The position numbers and the translations under genes are program-made. This document shows, one piece after another, positions 15,865 to 61,169 of a stretch of DNA of 64,000 nucleotides. The DNA comes from a bacterium (lineage in GTDB: Bacteria; Hinthialibacterota; Hinthialibacteria; OLB16). Every line of letters begins with the position of its first letter. The first letter of the stretch is position 1. The notes beneath the pieces are model-generated. The model was not told the DNA's origin. It searched no databases and saw nothing but the letters and a program-made list of their open reading frames with translations. The stretch covers positions 310,001 to 374,000 of the forward strand of contig JAJVIK010000007.1 of NCBI GenBank assembly GCA_022072055.1, read 5' to 3'.

Positions 15865-16892
15865 GCAGGACCGGGGGTTCAACTTCCGGAACCGTGGCCG
15901 TGCTTGGCGCGGGGAGCTGGGGCGCGACCCTGGCGCACTTGCTCGCCGAAAAGGGCCTTGCGGTCCACCTGTGGAGTCACACCCCGGAGAATGCCGCGCG
16001 GCTCTTGGAGGAGCGGACCCTTCCTGGGAAGCTTCCGGGCTTTCAGCTATCCCGCGCGGTGACTGTCGGCCATCGGTTGGATCAGGTCCTCGCCGGCGCA
16101 ACCACGCTGGTGGTGGCCGTGCCGAGCCGTCACTTCCGGGAAACCACCGTCGCGCTTCGCAAGGCGGTCCGCGCGCGGGAGTTTCGGGAAATGCTGACGG
16201 TCACCGCGACCAAGGGTTTTGAATTTGGGACCCTTAAGCCGATGACTTCGATCCTCTCCGAGGAGCTTGGAGTCGAGCATCCGGTGGCGCTTTCGGGACC
16301 TTCGCACGCCGAGGAGGTCTGCCGGGGGCTGCCCACCACGGTGGTCGCGGCTTCTCGGAGCATGGAGGCCGCGCGGGCGGTCCAAGACCTGTTCCGGACA
16401 CCGCGCTTCCGGGTCTACACCAGCAATGACCTAGTGGGGGTCGAGCTCGGCGGCGCGCTCAAGAATGTGATCGCCATCGCCGCCGGAGCCGCCGCCGGAA
16501 TGGGTTTCGGAGACAACACCATGGCCGCGCTGGTGACACGGGGCCTTGCGGAGATCGCGCGTCTGGGAGCGGCGATGGGCGCCGACCCGCTCACCTTTGC
16601 CGGGCTTTCCGGCTTGGGAGATTTGGTGGTGACCTGCGCGAGCCCCCACTCCAGGAACCGTCGCCTCGGCATGGCGCTCGCGCGCGGGGCCACTCTCCAG
16701 CAGGCGCTTTCCGAGATCGGCATGGCGGTGGAGGGGGTGGAGACCGCCCGCTCGGTCCAGGCGCTCACGGCAACGCACGGGATCGAGATGCCGATTGCCT
16801 CGCAAGTGGCGGAAACCCTCTTTGGGGGAGTTCCGGTCCAGGAGGCGGTGACCGCCCTCATGTTGCGTGATCCCAAGCCGGAGAAGGCCTAA
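15861..16892 (+). CDS. gpsA: NAD(P)-dependent glycerol-3-phosphate dehydrogenase GpsA
   Basis: A 343-residue enzyme. VAVLGAGSWGATLAHLLA is the N-terminal Rossmann loop; LSGPSHAEEV, ELGGALKNVIAIAAGAAAGMGFGDNTMAALVTRGLAEIARLG and GLSGLGDLVVTCASPHSRN are GpsA signatures, with Lys in ALKN as the catalytic base. It reduces dihydroxyacetone phosphate to sn-glycerol-3-phosphate for phospholipids in the cytoplasm. It starts at GTG in a 4-nt overlap with plsY. Confidence 0.95.
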   Translation: MSRTGGSTSGTVAVLGAGSWGATLAHLLAEKGLAVHLWSHTPENAARLLEERTLPGKLPGFQLSRAVTVGHRLDQVLAGATTLVVAVPSRHFRETTVALRKAVRAREFREMLTVTATKGFEFGTLKPMTSILSEELGVEHPVALSGPSHAEEVCRGLPTTVVAASRSMEAARAVQDLFRTPRFRVYTSNDLVGVELGGALKNVIAIAAGAAAGMGFGDNTMAALVTRGLAEIARLGAAMGADPLTFAGLSGLGDLVVTCASPHSRNRRLGMALARGATLQQALSEIGMAVEGVETARSVQALTATHGIEMPIASQVAETLFGGVPVQEAVTALMLRDPKPEKA

Positions 16893-23995: not shown

Positions 23996-24071
<76 letters not shown>

Positions 24072-37912: not shown

Positions 37913-38967
37913 CAGGGCACCTGGTTGATCGCGGGCCCGAGCCCCGAGCAGACGAACACGCTTGCCGAAACCGCCTTGCCCGCGTGCTGGACCCAATCTC
38001 CGGTGACGAGGCCGTTCGTCGCCTCGAACGAGTCGTCGTCGACGTACCAGGTGGGCTTCCCGTTCCTGCCGACGTAGACGTCTCTGTTGACCAGCATCGT
38101 CGCTCCAGGAGTGAACTTGCCGACTGCGACGGCGGTCGCCGTCTGGCCCGTCGTGTATGTCCCCGCGACCCACACCGTCGCCAGCTTGTCTCGGTCGGTC
38201 ACGTCCGGCTTGTAGAGCTTCCCGTCGGTTGGGTCGAATCGAGCGAAGCACGCCGAGAGGTTCTCCCCGCAGACGCCGGTCAGCGCGGTCGAGCTCGCCC
38301 CCAGAGCGGCGACGTCCGACTGAAGGGTCGTGACGTCCGACTGAAGGGTCGTGACGTCGGATTGAAGGGTCGTGACGTCCGACTGGAGACCCGACACGTC
38401 CGACTGAAGGGTCGTGACGTCGGACTGAAGGGTCGTGACGTCCGACTGGAGTCCCGACACGTCCGACTGGAGACCCGACACGTCCGACTGAAGGGTCGTG
38501 ACGTCGGACTGAAGGGTCGTGACGTCCGACTGGAGAGCCGTGACGTCTCCCTGCGCTGCGACGACCGCGTTCCAGACTCGCGCGAAGTCTGCCATCGTCA
38601 GCGAAGAGTGAGACGCCTGGTAGGTCGCGTAGACCGTGTTGCCGACCGCGCTGGCGTGGAAACGCAGGCGGCCCTTGAACGGAAGCGCTTGGACCTGGAA
38701 CTCGGACTCGGGCGGACTGAGCCGGACCGTGTACGGCGTTCCCGTGCCCCCAGCGCCGCTCGTTATCGAGAGGTTGGCGACCTTCGTGGGGTCTCCCCCG
38801 ACCGCGTGGAGGAGCGCCCAGAGCCCTCCCTCTGGCACTTGGAACGTCTCGTCCGTGATCGGCTGCCTCGCGGTCGTGTCGTCGAGGTCCCAGAACATTT
38901 CCAGGAACTGCCGCGCCTGGAGCGAGACGTCTATGTCTAGCGGCGTGAGCCCTTCGTACCACCTCAT
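37912..38967 (-). CDS. Tail fibre-like protein with a 12-heptad coiled coil
   Basis: A 351-residue protein. Residues about 145-225 are near-perfect heptads of the form LQSDVTT/LQSDVSG with Leu and Val at the core positions, a long parallel, probably trimeric, coiled coil. It is flanked by a beta-rich N-terminal domain (about 1-140) and a beta-rich C-terminal tip domain (about 235-351). Such shafts join a tail attachment domain to a receptor-binding head. It overlaps neighbours on both sides. Confidence 0.7.
   Translation of the reverse strand: MRWYEGLTPLDIDVSLQARQFLEMFWDLDDTTARQPITDETFQVPEGGLWALLHAVGGDPTKVANLSITSGAGGTGTPYTVRLSPPESEFQVQALPFKGRLRFHASAVGNTVYATYQASHSSLTMADFARVWNAVVAAQGDVTALQSDVTTLQSDVTTLQSDVSGLQSDVSGLQSDVTTLQSDVTTLQSDVSGLQSDVTTLQSDVTTLQSDVTTLQSDVAALGASSTALTGVCGENLSACFARFDPTDGKLYKPDVTDRDKLATVWVAGTYTTGQTATAVAVGKFTPGATMLVNRDVYVGRNGKPTWYVDDDSFEATNGLVTGDWVQHAGKAVSASVFVCSGLGPAINQVP
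38308..38545. repeat. 21-bp tandem repeats coding for coiled-coil heptads
   Basis: About eleven units related to ACGTCCGACTGAAGGGTCGTG, alternating with GGAGACCCGAC variants. They lie inside the gene at 37912-38967 and stay in frame. Copy number is likely to change by slippage, which would alter shaft length. Confidence 0.85.
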
Positions 38968-44823: not shown

Positions 44824-45093
44824 TCAGTGACCGCGTTTCTTTCTCGCGGCCTGCTGCTCGACCGGATGTTCTGCCTGGTCGACTGGCTGCTCGACCGGAT
44901 GTTCTGCCTGGTCGACTGGCTGCTCGACCGGCTGCTCGACCGGCTCTTCGAGGACCTCTTCGGCGTCCTCCGGAGCGTCCGCCACCTCGGCGAGCCCCTT
45001 CGCGATGAATCGTTCGGCTTCGTCGTCTGGGACGTCGGCGCAGTGCCTGTCGTCTGTGACGTAGCTCGTTCCGCACAAAAACCTGATCCACAT
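44824..45093 (-). CDS. Small phage protein with repeated Pro-Val-Glu-Gln segments
   Basis: An 89-residue protein. The start MWIRFLCGTSYVTDDRHCAD, then VPDDEAERFIAKGLAEVA, resembles DUF7302-like small head-region proteins. The C-terminal half repeats VEQPVDQAEHP and ends in a basic tail. GGAGG lies 9 nt upstream of the ATG at 45093; a TTG 18 nt earlier would place the SD inside the gene. Position between major capsid and decoration genes suggests a head accessory role. Confidence 0.62.
   Translation of the reverse strand: MWIRFLCGTSYVTDDRHCADVPDDEAERFIAKGLAEVADAPEDAEEVLEEPVEQPVEQPVDQAEHPVEQPVDQAEHPVEQQAARKKRGH
44864..44945. repeat. 33-bp tandem repeat inside the small head-region gene
   Basis: The unit, beginning CTGCTCGACCGGATGTTCTG, is repeated in full once and then partly as CTGCTCGACCGG copies. 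It stays in frame and codes for the PVEQ-type segments. Confidence 0.75.
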
Positions 45094-52956: not shown

Positions 52957-53134
52957 CGTCTCCGGCGACGACGAGGCAGAGCCCGCGCACAGTCTCCTCC
53001 AGCTCTTCGACGCGCTTCTCCATGTCCTCGACTTCTCCGCCGAGCTCTCGCGAGCGCTCCCGCGCTTCGTGCGCGACGATCCTCGTCTCTTCGATCTTCG
53101 TCCAAGCTCTCTTGACTCTCTCTTCCGCCATCAT
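52937..53134 (-). CDS. Small coiled-coil protein
   Basis: A 65-residue protein that is helical throughout (MMAEERVKRAWTKIEETRIV, then ELGGEVEDMEKRVEELEETVRGL). AAGGAG lies 7 nt before the first ATG at 53134, whose start overlaps the metallophosphoesterase stop. Function unknown. Confidence 0.55.
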   Translation of the reverse strand: MMAEERVKRAWTKIEETRIVAHEARERSRELGGEVEDMEKRVEELEETVRGLCLVVAGDDGSDRP

Positions 53135-54114
53135 CTCTTCGCTCCTTTCTCGTGGCGCGCTTCCCGAAGGTAGACGAGCGCCTCTCGAACGTCTAAAAAT
53201 CCGACGACTCGCTTCTTCGTCGGGTAGAAAACGAAAGTCGGGCACGACGGCACCGCCGCGTTGAAACCGATAGACTCTGCGTAGGGGTCTCTGACCAGGT
53301 AGCTCCCCGGACGGCAGGCCCACCGCACCTCGCCGTGCGCCCAAAAAGGTTCTAGAGCCGCTTCGTGGAGGTGGCAGATGCACCCGACGTCCCAAGCGTG
53401 CTCGCCGGTGCGCCAGTGCTGCTTGTGAGAATGCGTGGAGTTGAACCCGGAGTTGAAGCGTCCCTTATGCCTGATCCACAGGCGGTACTCAGCGCCGTGA
53501 TGCCGCAGCAGGATCCGGTGCTCGTGCTGCCCGTACAAAAGCCCTCGCCGCGCGGCGATCCGCCTGACGACGTCGACCCCGGCGCGCTCCAGAGTCCACA
53601 GGTCGTGGTTCCCGCTGATCATCGCGACGACCTTTTCGCCGAACATGTCGAGGTAGTGCTCGAAGGCCGAGACCTGCTCGTCGGGGAGGACGTTGCTCGC
53701 CAGCACCGCCGCCCAATGTTTCACGTGGTTGTCGCACCCGTCGCCGCCGAGGACGGCGAACACGCCCGGAGTCGAAGCTATCAGCTCGGCGTCTTCGCGC
53801 ATCCTTTTGTAATCGCAAGCGCCGCCGACGTGCTGGTCCGAAACGAACGCGAACGCGACGGGCAAAGGGTCGTGGACGTCGACCGACGACTTCAACCGTC
53901 CCGGAACGTCCTGCGGCGCGGCGCTCTCCAAGCCGCTCCACACTTTTTTCCCGTCAGGCGGCGAGCAGGGCTGGGCGGCCTCGACGGTGAAGGCCGCCCC
54001 TTTCGCCCCTCGGCTCGAATGCGATCTCGTCGCAGATCGCCTTCGAACCGTCTCAACAGCGCTCTTCGGCTTCTTCTTCGCCGTCTTCTTCGCCGTCTTC
54101 GTTTTCTTGATCAC
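53131..54114 (-). CDS. Metallophosphoesterase (calcineurin-like)
   Basis: A 327-residue protein. A Lys/Arg-rich N-terminal extension (about 1-35: KKTKTAKKTAKKKPKSAVE) precedes the domain, where the metal motifs are SDQHVG (D-x-H), GGDGCDN, SGNHDLW and, downstream, HSHKQHW and CHLHE. It hydrolyses a phosphodiester or phosphomonoester; nucleic acid or nucleotide substrates are likely in a phage. GTG start 4 nt after the TAGATA motif. Confidence 0.82.
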   Translation of the reverse strand: MIKKTKTAKKTAKKKPKSAVETVRRRSATRSHSSRGAKGAAFTVEAAQPCSPPDGKKVWSGLESAAPQDVPGRLKSSVDVHDPLPVAFAFVSDQHVGGACDYKRMREDAELIASTPGVFAVLGGDGCDNHVKHWAAVLASNVLPDEQVSAFEHYLDMFGEKVVAMISGNHDLWTLERAGVDVVRRIAARRGLLYGQHEHRILLRHHGAEYRLWIRHKGRFNSGFNSTHSHKQHWRTGEHAWDVGCICHLHEAALEPFWAHGEVRWACRPGSYLVRDPYAESIGFNAAVPSCPTFVFYPTKKRVVGFLDVREALVYLREARHEKGAKR

Positions 54115-54117
54115 GCT

Positions 54118-55701
54118 TTATCTATGCGACGCGCGATCAAAAGCTCGAAAAAAAATCCTCCGGAACGAAAAAAAACTGGAACCGCGTGGTCGGCGCTCCG
54201 CTGCCCCTCGCGCCGCCTCACGAACTCGAAGCGGTCGCCGACCTCGAAGGCGTGGGCATCTCCCTCTCCTCCCTCTCTCCCTGACTCTCGCAAGCTCTGG
54301 CGGACTCTCCGGCGACCCCCGGATGGGACTGCCCCTCACGGGCGAACCCCTGACCAGGACCTCTCCACGCCTCGCAAGTCCGTCCGGCGTCCGGACGCTC
54401 CAGACCACCGCTCTCGGAGCCCTCGACCGGCGCGCCGAACGCCGCGGAGCCGAAACTCTCCGAGCGGGCGCCACCGCTTCTGGAACCGGCGCAGCGCTCT
54501 CGAAGATCAAGCTCTTCACCGCGCCGCCAGACAAACGAAGCAGGACTCCGTACGCCTGTTCCAACACTCGCCGCCGCCTGTCGTAGACCCCGCGCTTCGT
54601 CAGAGAAGGACAGTCTAGCTCCTGGTCCGCGAGCGCCACGCAGACCTCGCGGCAGGTCCGCGTCGTCCACTCGCCGCTCTCATGCTCCCGGAGGCGGACC
54701 GAGTCGCCCTCCACCCGACACTCGTCGTAGCGGCAGGTGTGGCGGCGCGCCATGTAGCTGGCGTACTCCGCAACTCGACCGGACTCCACTCTGGTCGGAG
54801 CGCCGACCAAACCCTCCGAAGCGCTCTCTGCGCCCTCTGCGCCAGACAAGAACTTCGAGGCAAGGCCTCGCACTCTGGCGCTCCACTCTCGTTCCAACTT
54901 CTGGCCTAGAAGCCGCAGATCTATGGGAGAAACGACAGGAACTCGCCCCTCAAGGCGCATCGGAGCGACCAAAACGTGGACGTGCAGGTCGCGGCGCATC
55001 CACGTCAGAGGGTGCACCGAAAGCATCGCCGGGACTCCCGCGCCGACCGCCGCCTCTGCGCACTCGTACGCGGCGTCCAACAAAGCGGCGAGGAAGCGCC
55101 TGGAACGATAACTCCACGCGAGAGCGGCGAGATCGGGAGGCAAGCGGAGAGACCAAGCGACGTGCTCGACCGGTAAGACCCTAGACGAGACGTCGTGGTA
55201 GACCTCTCTAGCGTCTTCGTGCCACCTGGACGCCTCCGTGAACTTCGAGCGCGCTTCAGAGCGGCGCGGAGCGCAACCCGTGACTGGACACCGAAGCCGG
55301 TCGAGAAGCGCTTCGTGCGCCGCTCTAGAGATCGACGGAGAGGCGGCGGAGAGGCCGAGGCGGACCGCTTCGTTCAGATCGCGCGAGAGGGCGACGTGGA
55401 CGTGGCTGGTAGAGGCGCGCCACTTCCTGGGGAGGGGAAAGCTGGGCCGGTCGGGGAAGTCTAGGACCTGGGGCGCTTGATGGGGGTGCGCTTGCGCCTG
55501 GTGCGCCGGAAGGGGACACGCTTGCGCCAGGTGGGGGTGCGCTTGCGCCAGGTGGGGGTGCGCTTGCGCCTGCTCCAAGCGCGTCAGGTGCGCCGGAAGG
55601 TCCTCTTTTGTTAAGGTTTCGGATAGTGGGGTACATATAGTTCTCTGCGCCGAAGCCGGAACGGCGGCGAGAGCGGGATATGTGGTCGGCTTGTTTCGCA
55701 T
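54118..55701 (-). CDS. IS91-like HUH (Y2-type) endonuclease, putative replication initiator
   Basis: A 527-residue protein. VLPVEHVAWSLRLPPDLAALAW, then SYRSRRFLAALLDAAYE, matches the IS91 transposase block before the HUH site. The site itself is LTWMRRDLHVHVLV, with His240-x-His242. ESGRVAEYASYMARRHTCRY follows, with Tyr313 and Tyr316 where IS91 enzymes have Y-x-x-x-Y. The zinc ribbon is reduced to CPVTGC. Residues about 40-80 are His/Ala/Pro-rich, coded by 21-bp repeats; the C-terminus is basic. It may nick its own repeat region to start rolling-circle synthesis. The start is uncertain. Confidence 0.62.
   Translation of the reverse strand: MRNKPTTYPALAAVPASAQRTICTPLSETLTKEDLPAHLTRLEQAQAHPHLAQAHPHLAQACPLPAHQAQAHPHQAPQVLDFPDRPSFPLPRKWRASTSHVHVALSRDLNEAVRLGLSAASPSISRAAHEALLDRLRCPVTGCAPRRSEARSKFTEASRWHEDAREVYHDVSSRVLPVEHVAWSLRLPPDLAALAWSYRSRRFLAALLDAAYECAEAAVGAGVPAMLSVHPLTWMRRDLHVHVLVAPMRLEGRVPVVSPIDLRLLGQKLEREWSARVRGLASKFLSGAEGAESASEGLVGAPTRVESGRVAEYASYMARRHTCRYDECRVEGDSVRLREHESGEWTTRTCREVCVALADQELDCPSLTKRGVYDRRRRVLEQAYGVLLRLSGGAVKSLIFESAAPVPEAVAPARRVSAPRRSARRSRAPRAVVWSVRTPDGLARRGEVLVRGSPVRGSPIRGSPESPPELARVRERGRRGRCPRLRGRRPLRVREAARGAAERRPRGSSFFSFRRIFFRAFDRASHR
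54119..54129 (-). promoter_or_regulatory. Late-gene motif variant (TCGCATAGATA) upstream of the metallophosphoesterase gene
   Basis: The most divergent copy of AGCGGTAGATA. It overlaps the end of the HUH gene, and the TAGATA ends 4 nt before the GTG start. Confidence 0.35.
55480..55600. repeat. Iteron-like 21-bp repeats inside the HUH gene
   Basis: Four tandem units of the TGGGGGTGCGCTTGCGCCAG type (one diverged to GGGGACACGCTTGCGCCAGG), plus two copies of GGTGCGCCGGAAGG at 55500-55513 and 55587-55600. Each unit carries GCGC-TT-GCGC. Tandem binding sites of this sort are usual at rep-gene origins. Confidence 0.75.
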
Positions 55702-55872
55702 GTTTTTGTGCGCCGACGAGGGGGCAGGCCATGCGATACCCGTCCCCTCCCGGCGCGTGGCCAGGGATCAGCTGGCAAGTCTATAAACGGTGGGTGGGCG
55801 CGGTTTTCGAGCGGTCGAGGCGATTAAAACGGAGGTGGGGAACCTAAGCGTAAACCTGAGTGCTGTTTACGT
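55702..55872. other. Intergenic region between HUH gene and the AT-rich gene
   Basis: 171 bp without a gene. It contains the hairpin at 55843-55877 and should hold the promoter of the long minus-strand late operon. A TCTATAAAC stretch at 55789-55797 (GTTTATAGA on the minus strand) is a candidate -10. Confidence 0.45.
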
Positions 55873-55877
55873 TTAGG
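55843..55877 (-). terminator. Imperfect 13-bp hairpin at the end of the AT-rich gene
   Basis: Arms CCTAAGCGTAAAC and GTTTACGTTTAGG (one mismatch) around a 9-nt loop. It overlaps the TAA stop of the gene at 55873. No long T-run follows, so it may act as terminator or as a protein-binding operator. Confidence 0.5.
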
Positions 55878-56430
55878 GTATGTCGCGGGCGGCGTCTCTG
55901 ATGCGTTGGGCGTCCAGCGCTATCGAGTCGGCGTTGCGCCGAAGAGTCTCGACGAGCTTAGCGAGCGCGGCGCTGTGGTCGTGCGCGGTCTTTATGTTCT
56001 TCATCCATTCCTTGGCTTCGTTCTCGCAATGATCGCGCGTGGTCTTTATGGTCTTTACCCATTTATGCACTTCGTTCTTGCAATATTCGTCGGCGATGTA
56101 ATCTAACAAATCCAGCGTCCTCATCTCCGGTCCAGCGTACCTCGCAAGCGTTCGAATGAGGTGGGACCATTCGTAATGCGCGACGCCAACTAATCTTAGC
56201 TGCTCGAACATGTCGTGCTTGTCTTGCGGATTGTTCATTTTGTCTTCTTCCTCCATCTCCATCATTTCTTTCGCTTTGAAGATCGCGTTTTTTGCGGCTT
56301 TGGCGAGGCTTATCTTGTGGTCTTCGCTGACGAAAAGCAACCATTCAAAAAGGTCTTCCTTTTCGTCCCTCTTCTCGAACGTTATTTTGACCTGTTTTCG
56401 TTCGTCTTTTGGTTTCGTTTTGTCGCACAT
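55873..56430 (-). CDS. AT-rich helical protein, probable acquired (moron-like) gene
   Basis: A 185-residue protein, helical and Lys/Glu-rich: MCDKTKPKDERKQVKITFEK, then EDLFEWLLFVSEDHKISLAK. Related segments repeat near the C-terminus (NEVHKWVKTIKTTRDHCE and NEAKEWMKNIKTAHDHS). Base composition and codon use (many AAA, ATT, TTT) differ clearly from all neighbours, a sign of recent acquisition. GAGGG precedes the ATG. It has its own terminator-like hairpin and lies between modules, so it may be expressed in the lysogen. Function unknown. Confidence 0.65.
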   Translation of the reverse strand: MCDKTKPKDERKQVKITFEKRDEKEDLFEWLLFVSEDHKISLAKAAKNAIFKAKEMMEMEEEDKMNNPQDKHDMFEQLRLVGVAHYEWSHLIRTLARYAGPEMRTLDLLDYIADEYCKNEVHKWVKTIKTTRDHCENEAKEWMKNIKTAHDHSAALAKLVETLRRNADSIALDAQRIRDAARDIP

Positions 56431-56492
56431 TTTTGCCCTCGGGTACACACAAAGTCGTCCAGCGAAAACGTGTGCTACAACCTCATTCGTCG

Positions 56493-56514
56493 GGCGGGGC
56501 GATCCCTCCCCGCC
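56493..56514 (+). terminator. Attenuator-like hairpin in the replication-operon leader
   Basis: GGCGGGG pairs with CCCCGCC over an 8-nt loop and is followed by TTT. It lies 50 nt before the first gene, so it would act as an attenuator rather than a gene-end terminator. Confidence 0.5.
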
Positions 56515-56517
56515 TTT

Positions 56518-56537
56518 CGTCCCAGCGTGCTGGGACG
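56518..56537. promoter_or_regulatory. 20-bp palindrome in the replication-operon leader
   Basis: CGTCCCAGCGTGCTGGGACG: perfect 9-bp arms around GT. It could be an operator or the second hairpin of an attenuator. It ends 26 nt before the PrimPol-like start. Confidence 0.55.
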
Positions 56538-56563
56538 ACAACCTTAAAGTGAGGTGACGAACA

Positions 56564-57463
56564 ATGTCAACCGAACAATTGGCGGCCGAACAGGCCGCCA
56601 GTCCGTCGATTCCGGCAGAAATCGCGGACATGAATCACTTCTGCTGCGTCTCCGGCCGCGGACGAAGCGTCGCCGGGTACCATCCGGTTACGGGAGCGGT
56701 GGTCGACCAGTCGACCCTTGTTTCTTACGATACCGCGCGCGTCGGCGCGGTCATGACCGGGGGGCGCGTAGGTTTCGTCCCGCCGCCCGAAAGCGGGTAT
56801 GCAGGTCTCGCGGTCGCCTACTACGACAACGGCGTCCCTGTCCCTCCTGCGCGCGAGCTGGTGGGACATCTCGCCAGCTACGCGGTCAACCTCGAGGACG
56901 GAGTCCACGTTCTCGTGCTCGTTCGTTCGACCTCTCCGATACCGCGCGTGTTCTCTTCCGATCGCCCGGTTTGGACTCAGACGGGTGTCATCGACCTCGG
57001 TGTGTCGAAGTTGGACGGCGCTCCGCTCGTGGTCGCTGAGGCAGACCTCGGCAGCTTGATCGGGGAGCTCACCGGCGGGTCCGGTCTGTCTCCGGAGGAC
57101 GCCGAGCTCCTCGACAAGATGATCGGGGCGCGCAACTCCCAGCGCGTGAGGATGTATTACGATTCCTCGCCGCGCGTCTCGGACCAGAACGCGGCCGAAG
57201 AGGAACTGTGCCGCCGCCTTGCGTGGTGGTGCGACCGCGACGTCGCGCGCGTGGACCGGCTCTTCCGCGCGTCGAGCATTTTCGACCCGGCGCGTTGGGA
57301 CCGCGTGATGTTCCCGGCGACCGGAATGACACGCGGTCGGTGGGTCATCGACCGCGCCGTCTCGAACGTCAACGAGGGTTACAGGCCGTCTAAAAAAGGG
57401 CGGACGACGCACCGAAACATCGGCGCGTGGGATCAAGTCAGCAACCGTGAGGTGCAGTCATGA
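56564..57463 (+). CDS. PrimPol-like protein with catalytic aspartates lost, plus helicase-binding-type domain
   Basis: A 299-residue protein that follows NrS-1/P4-type primase N-terminal regions: HPVTGAVVDQSTLVSYDTARVGAVMTGGRVGFV, then YAGLAVAYYDNG where the family has GIDLD, then HLASYAVNLEDGVHVLVLVR where it has SYTEISPSGDGLHVVV. Both metal-binding Asp positions are Ala (Ala83, Ala85); His115 remains. Residues about 210-270 (AEEELCRRLAWWCDRDVARV) match the domain that joins primase to SF3 helicase. It probably loads or positions the helicase rather than making primers. GAGGTGA precedes the ATG. Confidence 0.7.
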   Translation: MSTEQLAAEQAASPSIPAEIADMNHFCCVSGRGRSVAGYHPVTGAVVDQSTLVSYDTARVGAVMTGGRVGFVPPPESGYAGLAVAYYDNGVPVPPARELVGHLASYAVNLEDGVHVLVLVRSTSPIPRVFSSDRPVWTQTGVIDLGVSKLDGAPLVVAEADLGSLIGELTGGSGLSPEDAELLDKMIGARNSQRVRMYYDSSPRVSDQNAAEEELCRRLAWWCDRDVARVDRLFRASSIFDPARWDRVMFPATGMTRGRWVIDRAVSNVNEGYRPSKKGRTTHRNIGAWDQVSNREVQS

Positions 57464-58143: not shown

Positions 58144-59655
58144 ATGCGCTACGCTTTGCACGAAGACGGAAACGCCGCGCGGTTGGTGCTGGAGCACAGG
58201 TCCACCGCCAGGTACGTCCCCGAGTGGAAACGATGGGTGCGCTGGGACGGGAGGATGTGGCGGATCGAACGGGGCGGGTGGTGGCGTCGTGAGTGCGCCA
58301 ACCGCATCCAGGAGTTGCTAGCCGCAGAGCTCGACGAGACCGAGGACGAGGGCGAGCGGTCGGCGATCGTCGGTTGGATCGGGCGGTCGATGTCGTCCTC
58401 GGTCATGGAGCAGGTGGGACGGCTTTGGTCGGCGCGTTGCGAGGCGGACTCGACCGCGTGGGACCGCGACCCGATGGTGCTCCAATCGTCGGACGGTGCG
58501 CGGGTCGATCTCGTTACCGGAGAATCGCGCCCTGCGGAGCCGAGCGACATGCTGCTCCGCAAGGCGGGAACCTCGGTGGGATCGGGCGAACCGAAGCGCT
58601 GGACAGAGTTCCTGCGCCAGGTCGCCTGCGGAGACGACGACCTGGTCGGGTTCCTGCGGCGCTGGTTCGGATACGCGCTGACGGGCGACGTGGGAGAGCA
58701 GCGGCTGGTCGTGATGCACGGCGACGGGGCGAACGGAAAGTCTGTCTTGCTTTCTGTCGTCCAGCGCGTGATGGGCGAATACGCCAGGAGGTCATCGTCG
58801 CAGCTCGTCACCGTTTCGCGGTACGCCGGTGGCAAACCTCCTGGCGAGGTCGCCGCGCTGAACGGAGTACGATTGGCAGTCGTGGTCGAGCTCGACGACC
58901 GCGCCGAGCTCGACGAGGGGCTGATTAAATCACTGACAGGCGGCGACGACGTGAACGCTCGATTTTTGTACCACGACACGCACACTTTTCGGCCTACCGC
59001 AAAGCTGGTCTTGTGCTCCAACCACCGTCCGTCCGTGCGGGGTGCGGACCACGGGATCTGGAGGAGGGTGCTCGCCGTGCCGTTCCGGTGGCGCGTGCCA
59101 GAGGCGGATCAGGACCCGCATCTCGCCGAGAAGCTGGCGGCGGAGGAGGGACCAGCGATCCTCGGGTGGATGATTCGCGGCGCGCTAGAGTGGCGCCAGC
59201 GCGGGCTAGACGCGCCGCCGTGCGTGTTGGCAGAGACCGAAGACTATCGATCGCAGGTCGGAGACGTGCCGACGTTCCTCGCGGAGTGCTGTCGGACGGG
59301 GAGCGACATGAAAGTCCCGCCGAGCGAGATGTACGAGGCTTACAAGGCGTGGTGCGCCGACCGGGGGAACACGCCGCTGACGGTCCAGAGGTTCCGGGAA
59401 GGGGCGAGAAGCGCCGGAATCGAGACGGTGCGCAGCAACGGCAAGCGCTGGTTTCGGGGAATCGACCTGCGTCCAGACTACCTGACACTGCTGACCGAGC
59501 GGTTGGCGACTCGTCCCGTGATGGTCGAGGACCCCGGGATCGTGGCGAGGCAGTGGGACACGGCGGCGCGGATCGGCGGTCTGTTCGCTCCTCCTCCTCC
59601 GGGAGCCGTTCCGGTCACCGTCCCGGACGAGAGCGGTAGGATGATGACACCGTGA
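58144..59655 (+). CDS. SF3 helicase (P4/D5-type primase C-terminal module)
   Basis: A 503-residue protein. Residues about 1-170 match the D5_N-type domain (WVRWDGRMWRIERGGWWRRE). The AAA+/SF3 core follows: Walker A GDGANGKS (193-200), Walker B LAVVVELDD (244-252), SF3 sensor KLVLCSNHRP (287-296) and RRVLAVPFRW. A C-terminal winged-helix part (NTPLTVQRFREGARSAGIETVRSNGKRWFRG) completes the family layout. It unwinds the phage origin. In relatives the primase is fused to this helicase; here it is a separate, apparently inactive gene. Confidence 0.9.
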   Translation: MRYALHEDGNAARLVLEHRSTARYVPEWKRWVRWDGRMWRIERGGWWRRECANRIQELLAAELDETEDEGERSAIVGWIGRSMSSSVMEQVGRLWSARCEADSTAWDRDPMVLQSSDGARVDLVTGESRPAEPSDMLLRKAGTSVGSGEPKRWTEFLRQVACGDDDLVGFLRRWFGYALTGDVGEQRLVVMHGDGANGKSVLLSVVQRVMGEYARRSSSQLVTVSRYAGGKPPGEVAALNGVRLAVVVELDDRAELDEGLIKSLTGGDDVNARFLYHDTHTFRPTAKLVLCSNHRPSVRGADHGIWRRVLAVPFRWRVPEADQDPHLAEKLAAEEGPAILGWMIRGALEWRQRGLDAPPCVLAETEDYRSQVGDVPTFLAECCRTGSDMKVPPSEMYEAYKAWCADRGNTPLTVQRFREGARSAGIETVRSNGKRWFRGIDLRPDYLTLLTERLATRPVMVEDPGIVARQWDTAARIGGLFAPPPPGAVPVTVPDESGRMMTP

Positions 59656-59906: not shown

Positions 59907-59969
59907 TCAACCCAGTGTAACGATAGGTGTAGAGAATATAAAATGATGTGGAATATCGGAGGTGCCTCA

Positions 59970-61103
59970 GTGCCTGAGAAACGAAAGTTGGGTCCAGTGC
60001 TTATCAAAGTGGACGGAGACGTGTGCTGGCTCCGGTTCACGAACGCAAGCGGGCGCGACGTCCGCAAACGTTTCACCGGGCTGACTCGCGCGGAGATAGA
60101 CAGGCGCGCCGCGATGTGCGTCTACGAGGCGACGCTGTTCGACGGTAAGGAAGAATCATTGCCGCCCATCGACGAGACGTTCAAGAAGGTCGTTTCAATG
60201 AGTCGCGGAAATGCGACCTCGCGTGAAGCGATGCGCCAGGACTGCAACCGTTTCATCACGTGGCTCAGGACCGAATACCCGTCGATCGGGCGCTGGGAGG
60301 ACATGCGCCCCGACCACGTCGTCGCCTACGCACGTTGGATGGAAGCGAAGGGGCTTGCGTACGACACGGTGCGTTTGAGACTCTCGCCGATCAAAGCCGC
60401 TTGGAAGCACCTCGTCGAGTCCTACGACGGAGTGCGCCCTCTGCCCACGATCCGGCTCCGCCCCGCTCCCCTGATCGAAAAAGACTGTCTCACCCCAGTC
60501 GAGGTCGCCGCGCTCCTCGACTATCTCCGTGAGAACGAGCCCGAGGTCCATCCCCTCTGCGCTCTCCAAGCGCTCTGCGGTCTCCGCATTTTGGAGGCCG
60601 CTCACCTGCGCCGCTGCGACGTCGACTGGACCAACGGCACGGTCACCGTGACCGACACGGGTCGTCATGCGCCGAAGAACCGCAGCTCTTACAGGACGCT
60701 CCCAGCATGCCGTGAGGTGATGGACGCCCTGCGCCGCACCGCAGACGACCAAGTGAAGGCGCCCGCTTCCGACGAGCTGTTCACGGCGGAGGGAGGAAGG
60801 CCGTGGAACTTGGACACGGTCACCCAGAGGATCAAGCGCGCGATGCGCCGTGCCGCGAAGAAACTTGAGAACCCACGCTACAACGACATCGCGCCGCGCA
60901 GGCTGAGGGCCTCCTTCGCGACAATGAATTACGAGCTGGGAGTGGACGACAGCGCCGTGAAGCGTTACATGGGCCATTCCGGAGGCGACATGCTCAACCA
61001 GAATTACAAAGTCATCCGCATGGCGGACTTGGAGCGGGTAAGGATGGCGATAGAAGGCTGGAGGGGACTCTTAAATGGCATGAGTGCCAATGATGGATCG
61101 TAA
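59970..61103 (+). CDS. int: Tyrosine recombinase (phage integrase)
   Basis: A 377-residue protein with N-terminal arm-binding and SAM-like core-binding domains and a catalytic domain: GLRILEAAHLRR with Arg206, the beta-hairpin Lys region, RRLR (310-313), GHS with His336 and NQNY with Tyr346. The His of the usual H-x-x-R box is Arg. The GTG at 59970 has GGAGG 7 nt upstream and is preferred over the ATG at 59943. It lies 29 nt from attR and would catalyse integration into tRNA-Ala. Confidence 0.9.
   Translation: MPEKRKLGPVLIKVDGDVCWLRFTNASGRDVRKRFTGLTRAEIDRRAAMCVYEATLFDGKEESLPPIDETFKKVVSMSRGNATSREAMRQDCNRFITWLRTEYPSIGRWEDMRPDHVVAYARWMEAKGLAYDTVRLRLSPIKAAWKHLVESYDGVRPLPTIRLRPAPLIEKDCLTPVEVAALLDYLRENEPEVHPLCALQALCGLRILEAAHLRRCDVDWTNGTVTVTDTGRHAPKNRSSYRTLPACREVMDALRRTADDQVKAPASDELFTAEGGRPWNLDTVTQRIKRAMRRAAKKLENPRYNDIAPRRLRASFATMNYELGVDDSAVKRYMGHSGGDMLNQNYKVIRMADLERVRMAIEGWRGLLNGMSANDGS
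61076..61089. repeat. Inverted repeat near attR (TGGCA-TGAG-TGCCA)
   Basis: Its TTGGCAC half-site (minus strand) matches the TTGGCACATGTGCCAA palindrome at 24176-24191 near attL. It lies within the last integrase codons. Both could be arm-type recombinase or excisionase sites. Confidence 0.45.
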
Positions 61104-61132: not shown

Positions 61133-61169
61133 CAAGAGGTCAGGGGTTCGATCCCCCTCAGCTCCACCA
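61133..61169 (+). repeat. attR: 37-bp copy of the tRNA-Ala 3' end
   Basis: Identical to attL over 37 bp. It is the displaced end of the host tRNA gene, followed by host sequence (acccctcac). It has no cloverleaf of its own. Confidence 0.95.

Follow-up and report, generated by a model that had tools for sequence, protein, structure and literature searches.

The window, a stretch of 64,000 nt of bacterial DNA (G+C content 64.2%) from an assembly of 5.86 Mb that belongs to a sparsely sampled phylum, contains a prophage of 37.1 kb that is flanked by a perfect 37-bp direct repeat corresponding to the 3' end of a tRNA-Ala gene (Table 1). Its minus strand carries genes for an HK97-type capsid protein, an S78 protease, portal, large terminase, tape measure and head-tail proteins; a D5/SF3 primase-helicase module is found on the plus strand. 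The region is a complete-looking prophage of a temperate tailed phage. A search with the terminase as query found no related phages. Two sets of tandem repeats were also observed, namely 21-nt units in the region of a tail-fibre-like gene (38269–38610; 12 overlapping register copies of a 111-nt reference) and 33-nt copies near the capsid genes (44853–44951; two perfect copies and a third, diverged one).

We focused on P0001, an open reading frame on the minus strand that occurs once in the genome according to a genome-wide search. Codon statistics trained on clear genes support its frame from ~55,600 to ~54,510, i.e. for aa 35–395. Over the AQAHPHL repeats near the N-terminus the coding signal is weak or ambiguous, and the last 130 aa have none. 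A small ORF in another frame (FEVGDRFEFVRRREG...) overlaps this C-terminal end, so the true end of P0001 is unsure; the stop of the small ORF overlaps the GTG start codon of the next gene (GTGA), and two runs of eight T are present within its region. Contrary to the first-pass annotation, in which the gene overlapped the late operon structure, the stop of P0001 precedes the GTG of the metallophosphoesterase gene (54114) with 3 nt between them. A MobB match of a protein neighbouring P0001 (E 0.077) fell short of the cut-off and was judged to be a chance match.

Table 1. Features of the P0001 locus and of the surrounding prophage (window coordinates)
Feature	Position	Strand	Basis or remark
Attachment site copy, 3' end of tRNA-Ala(GGC)	24035..24071	+	37-bp repeat
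Metallophosphoesterase / PHROG 7339 'DNA repair exonuclease', next operon gene	53131..54114	-	profile matches
Small ORF in another frame, overlapping the P0001 3' end	54111..54293	-	codon signal favours the small-ORF frame near 54,240
P0001, HUH-like protein ORF, 527 aa, ATG start	54118..55701	-	ORF listing
Codons of Y313-A-S-Y316, candidate catalytic tyrosines in predicted helix aa 307–321	54754..54765	-	sequence and predicted structure
aa 170–250 of P0001, matching the Y2/IS91 transposase profile (VLPVEHVAWSLRLPPDL...LHVHVLV)	54952..55194	-	profile-profile comparison
Codons of HUH motif H240-V241-H242, predicted strand aa 239–245	54976..54984	-	sequence and predicted structure
AQAHPHL-type N-terminal repeats of P0001, encoded by 21-nt direct repeats	55473..55575	-	repeat search
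AT-rich palindrome, 13-nt arms with one mismatch, 9-nt loop	55843..55877	.	upstream of the P0001 gene
D5_N / SF3 primase-helicase, phage replication module	58144..59655	+	profile matches; common in phages
Prophage tyrosine integrase	59943..61103	+	profile match; just inside the second attachment site copy
Second attachment site copy	61133..61169	+	37/37 identical to the copy at 24035–24071

HUH and tyrosine motifs in P0001

The two histidines of the putative HUH motif, H240 and H242, lie in the string HVHVLV (aa 240–245), exactly as they had been annotated, and the candidate tyrosines Y313 and Y316 are found in EYASYMARR. The tyrosine spacing is indeed 3, compared with 4 for Y249/Y253 of the IS91 TnpA protein (PMC5714925). 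Some of the Y2 proteins in our alignment retain the second tyrosine only. The reduced zinc ribbon was seen as well: the corresponding region of P0001 has just two cysteines (C138 and C143), as against six conserved ones in the aligned Y2 proteins (C97, C109, C112, C122, C127 and C130 in the numbering of L015). Upon shuffling of residues 130–410, a hydrophobic HxH strand followed by a tyrosine pair at the right distance occurred in 0.035% of trials, a value that is post hoc because the ORF had been picked for those motifs in the first place. A second HVHV string (SHVHVALSRDLNEAVR, aa 99–103, window ~55393–55407, minus strand) in the N-terminal part resembles the later strand-plus-helix segment and might be either a chance occurrence or an internal repeat.

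Profile comparison with Y2 transposases

Comparing P0001 with a profile of 15 Y2 transposases by hhalign, we obtained matches over aa 170–250 with probabilities of 71–79% and P-values of 1.6e-5 to 3.6e-5. P0001 scored 43.7, whereas none of 300 shuffled sequences exceeded 27.8. With an enlarged Y2 profile, the P0001 core reached 39.9 and the stop-to-stop ORF 40.8. Among the 187 further stop-to-stop ORFs of at least 150 aa in the window, the top score was 22.9; a Y1 transposase profile gave a P of 0.36. Assuming ~64 genes, we estimate the chance of a match at P ~2e-5 to be ~0.001 per window. HMMER searches with home-made Y2 profiles yielded 8.6 to 9.7 bits for P0001, and its core scored 9.9 versus 6.7 for the best of 2000 core shuffles. 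The signal stems from the diversity of the profile, as sub-profiles built from canonical IS91 members only or from divergent members only matched weakly or not at all; an alignment that included every Y2 protein proved too diverse as a scan query. The match stops at the HUH strand. When compared with the Y2 profile by itself, the tyrosine half was at chance level, with 952 of 2000 shuffles scoring as well. Aligners disagreed on the position of the tyrosine segment, and in MAFFT it differed between alignments; we therefore put no weight on the tyrosine alignment. Thus, of the IS91-like blocks described in the first-pass annotation, those before and on the HUH strand hold as a distant Y2/IS91 similarity, but the surroundings of the tyrosines do not; the profile-profile comparison it had proposed returned a modest, specific match for the one half and chance for the other.

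Predicted structure

The AlphaFold model computed from the single sequence had a mean pLDDT of 46.7. For a second model we supplied Y2 rows trimmed to the HUH half, which gave a mean pLDDT of 59.5. Both models contain the succession beta-alpha-alpha-beta-beta(HUH, H240/H242)-alpha-alpha(Tyr, Y313/Y316)-beta-beta-beta, followed by a helix. Structure prediction for HUH geometry had been suggested as a check; the order of elements fits HUH proteins, in models of low overall confidence (pLDDT 47 and 60). In the second model the tyrosine helix and the next hairpin reached a pLDDT of 76–91, and no homologous rows had been supplied for this part. Searching with Foldseek, we retrieved generic ferredoxin-like and KH folds for the single-sequence model. 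For the second model, the top 50 PDB rows contained 11 HUH relaxases (among them pCU1 TraI, F TraI, TrwC and pKM101 TraI), and the top 50 of the viral list (BFVD) included a microvirus Rep, a MobA/VirD2 and a CRESS Rep protein. No match of either model reached an E-value of 0.001, and no relaxase row was individually significant. The relaxase matches are supportive and partly circular, since Y2 rows had been supplied over the HUH half.

Search for relatives

P0001 matched none of the Pfam, PHROG, NCBIfam and PADLOC models, and the curated models gave nothing even at E 10. A defence protein identity was discarded on the basis of the PADLOC result. Protein scans of viral contigs (two) and of genome contigs (one) returned no relative, and neither did tblastn searches of phages and plasmids. 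In 60 relatives and 14 genomes of the phylum we found, apart from P0001 itself, random matches only (E 0.06–0.8). Degenerate DNA patterns for HVH were also searched in viral and genome contigs; each readable match looked non-coding and was devoid of an HUH layout. P0001 is, as judged by sequence similarity, an orphan in the phage, plasmid, viral-contig and genome collections searched.

These results bear on the possibility that P0001 is not an HUH protein at all but an orphan phage protein in which an HVHVLV strand and a YASY helix arose by chance. The failure of the curated models, the chance-level score of the tyrosine half and the lack of homologues in which the histidines and tyrosines could be compared would all agree with this, and the additional HVHV at aa 100–103 indicates that such strings arise in a protein of this composition. 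However, the profile match at P ~2e-5 lies far above the shuffles and the other ORFs of the window, the order and spacing of the elements fit HUH proteins, and relaxases are among the top structural matches. We therefore regard a chance origin of the motifs as unlikely. P0001 is a gene of the phage, and its product is probably an HUH protein that belongs to the Y2 line as a very divergent member.

Comparison with known HUH proteins

P0001 shares several features with the Y2 transposases of IS91 and ISCR elements. The strand LPVEHVAWSLRLPPDL resembles LPVEYFHVVFTLPDEL and is followed by the HUH strand in the same order; as in the IS91 family, where it comes after the LPxxxxHxVFTLP strand, the HUH motif of P0001 sits on a hydrophobic strand, and a tyrosine helix lies ~75 residues further on, with a beta hairpin and then a helix behind it. 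In contrast to the IS91 family, P0001 stays below detection by Pfam (PF04986, Y2_Tnp, was unmatched even at E 10), the zinc ribbon is missing, the tyrosines are spaced by 3, the tyrosine half is without sequence support, and the gene is a single-copy member of a phage operon. With Pfam match, zinc ribbon, tyrosine spacing and copy number all speaking against it, a classification of P0001 as an IS91-family transposase is not warranted. On the sequence evidence, the best reading is that its HUH half shares ancestry with the Y2 (IS91/ISCR-type) transposases; domestication from an insertion sequence and an origin in an old sister line are indistinguishable, since no relatives were found.

IS91 elements are mobile, have ori and ter ends and often occur in several copies. 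They have no terminal inverted repeats, so that the absence of such repeats alone is uninformative (PMC5714925). The 3 nt to the next gene, however, leave no room for an IS91 3' end, and together with the single copy and a prophage that has retained both attachment sites this argues for a phage gene rather than an intact IS91 copy, in agreement with the first-pass annotation. An intact IS91 insertion was accordingly ruled out by the single copy and the lack of room for the ends. Intact copies of such a gene do exist in the genome: contig C29 (17,295 bases) carries an ISCR/IS91-type transposase gene in two copies of the same orientation near its ends (469–1146 and 16062–16739). They match PF04986 and were not picked up by the genome-wide search with P0001. 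Both have a single tyrosine (RLCRYISRP); the pair may represent a composite element, a small circle or an assembly effect.

The presence of intact IS91/ISCR-type copies elsewhere in the genome fits a further explanation, namely that P0001 has no role in the phage and is a passenger or a decaying, immobile relative of the IS91 type whose catalysis may have been lost. The reduced zinc ribbon, the odd tyrosine spacing and the unusual C-terminal tail would be in line with decay, as would the 130 C-terminal aa devoid of a coding signal, and without relatives in phages there is no sign of selection on P0001 within them. On the other hand, the frame has remained open with a codon signal over aa 35–395, the next operon gene is only 3 nt away, and P0001 is a single-copy gene whose sequence did not lead to the copies on contig C29. 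We consider a mere passenger to be rather improbable and retain the interpretation of P0001 as a divergent HUH protein of the phage.

The relaxase domains of pCU1, F, R388 and pKM101 (TraI and TrwC) occur in the top 50 PDB rows, none of them significantly, and viral Rep/MobA proteins in the BFVD top 50; no Pfam relaxase model matches P0001. In relaxases the tyrosines precede the HUH motif. If P0001 is an HUH protein, it would resemble the P2 gpA and phiX174 gpA initiators (PF05840) in combining an HUH motif with tyrosine nicking and in starting rolling-circle replication. The PF05840 model did not match, and these initiators have a tyrosine spacing of 4. A further difference is the D5/SF3 primase-helicase module in the phage of P0001. 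A precedent for rolling-circle replication endonucleases in integrated temperate viruses is provided by Rep-Arvir, endonucleases of archaeal viruses whose relationship is visible only at the level of structure; unlike P0001, they belong to archaeal viruses and are kin to Rep_trans, not to Y2 transposases (PMC13107129).

Possible role in the phage

In HUH enzymes two histidines hold a metal ion, a tyrosine attacks the DNA and becomes covalently linked to the 5' end, and religation or transfer follows. The data show the ORF, its place in a prophage, the motifs, the profile match of the N-terminal half and the predicted succession of elements, whereas catalytic residues, nicking and a role in the phage are inferred. 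By analogy, P0001 would most likely be a phage-owned single-strand DNA endonuclease in which a metal bound by H240 and H242 assists nicking of one strand via Y316, perhaps together with Y313, and which religates or transfers the nicked end. Such a nickase would probably act in lytic DNA metabolism, for example by starting rolling-circle (sigma) replication to produce concatemers for the terminase. Within the minus-strand packaging operon the gene takes the upstream end, next to a putative DNA nuclease/phosphoesterase gene and to the terminase genes. Of several guesses, this position favours late DNA processing, such as the start of sigma replication. A role in replication proper can be proposed only tentatively. 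The presence of a primase-helicase in the phage counts against the proposed enzyme.

The first-pass annotation had suggested a functional pair of the HUH protein with the SF3 helicase and a search for this pairing in other phages. Both genes are located ~2.4 kb apart within one 37-kb prophage, but they are separate genes on opposite strands and do not encode one protein. The SF3 protein (D5_N/SF3/Pox_D5) is a primase-helicase and adjoins a protein with an NrS-1 polymerase HBD domain. Homologues of it were found in 1254 phage records and P0001 in none, so no phage record carries both; likewise, no HUH gene was seen beside the relatives in L009–L014, where the flanks are short. We dropped the conserved pair for this reason, and a partnership of P0001 with the SF3 helicase in a CRESS-like rolling-circle replicase is very improbable indeed.

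Domestication of transposases is known for TnpA-REP. If P0001 nicks DNA, the Y2 transposase line would have supplied a tailed phage with a working nickase, a new HUH family that current model libraries miss would be at hand, and the formation of concatemers in phages with primase-helicase replisomes would become testable in this phage type. Should P0001 not nick DNA, it would be a warning against calling HUH proteins from motifs alone.

Finally, the palindrome upstream of P0001 is located at the end of a minus-strand gene (55873–56631) and is AT-rich in an otherwise G+C-rich prophage. It is conceivable as a candidate binding or nick site or as an operator, with the proviso that simulated sequences of equal length also contain palindromes as good as this one by chance. 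In the most far-reaching scenario, which we regard as a long shot, P0001 would found a new family of phage HUH proteins descended from the Y2/IS91 line and would enable a tailed phage with a primase-helicase replisome to switch to rolling-circle (sigma) replication, and the palindrome at 55843–55877 would be its nick site.
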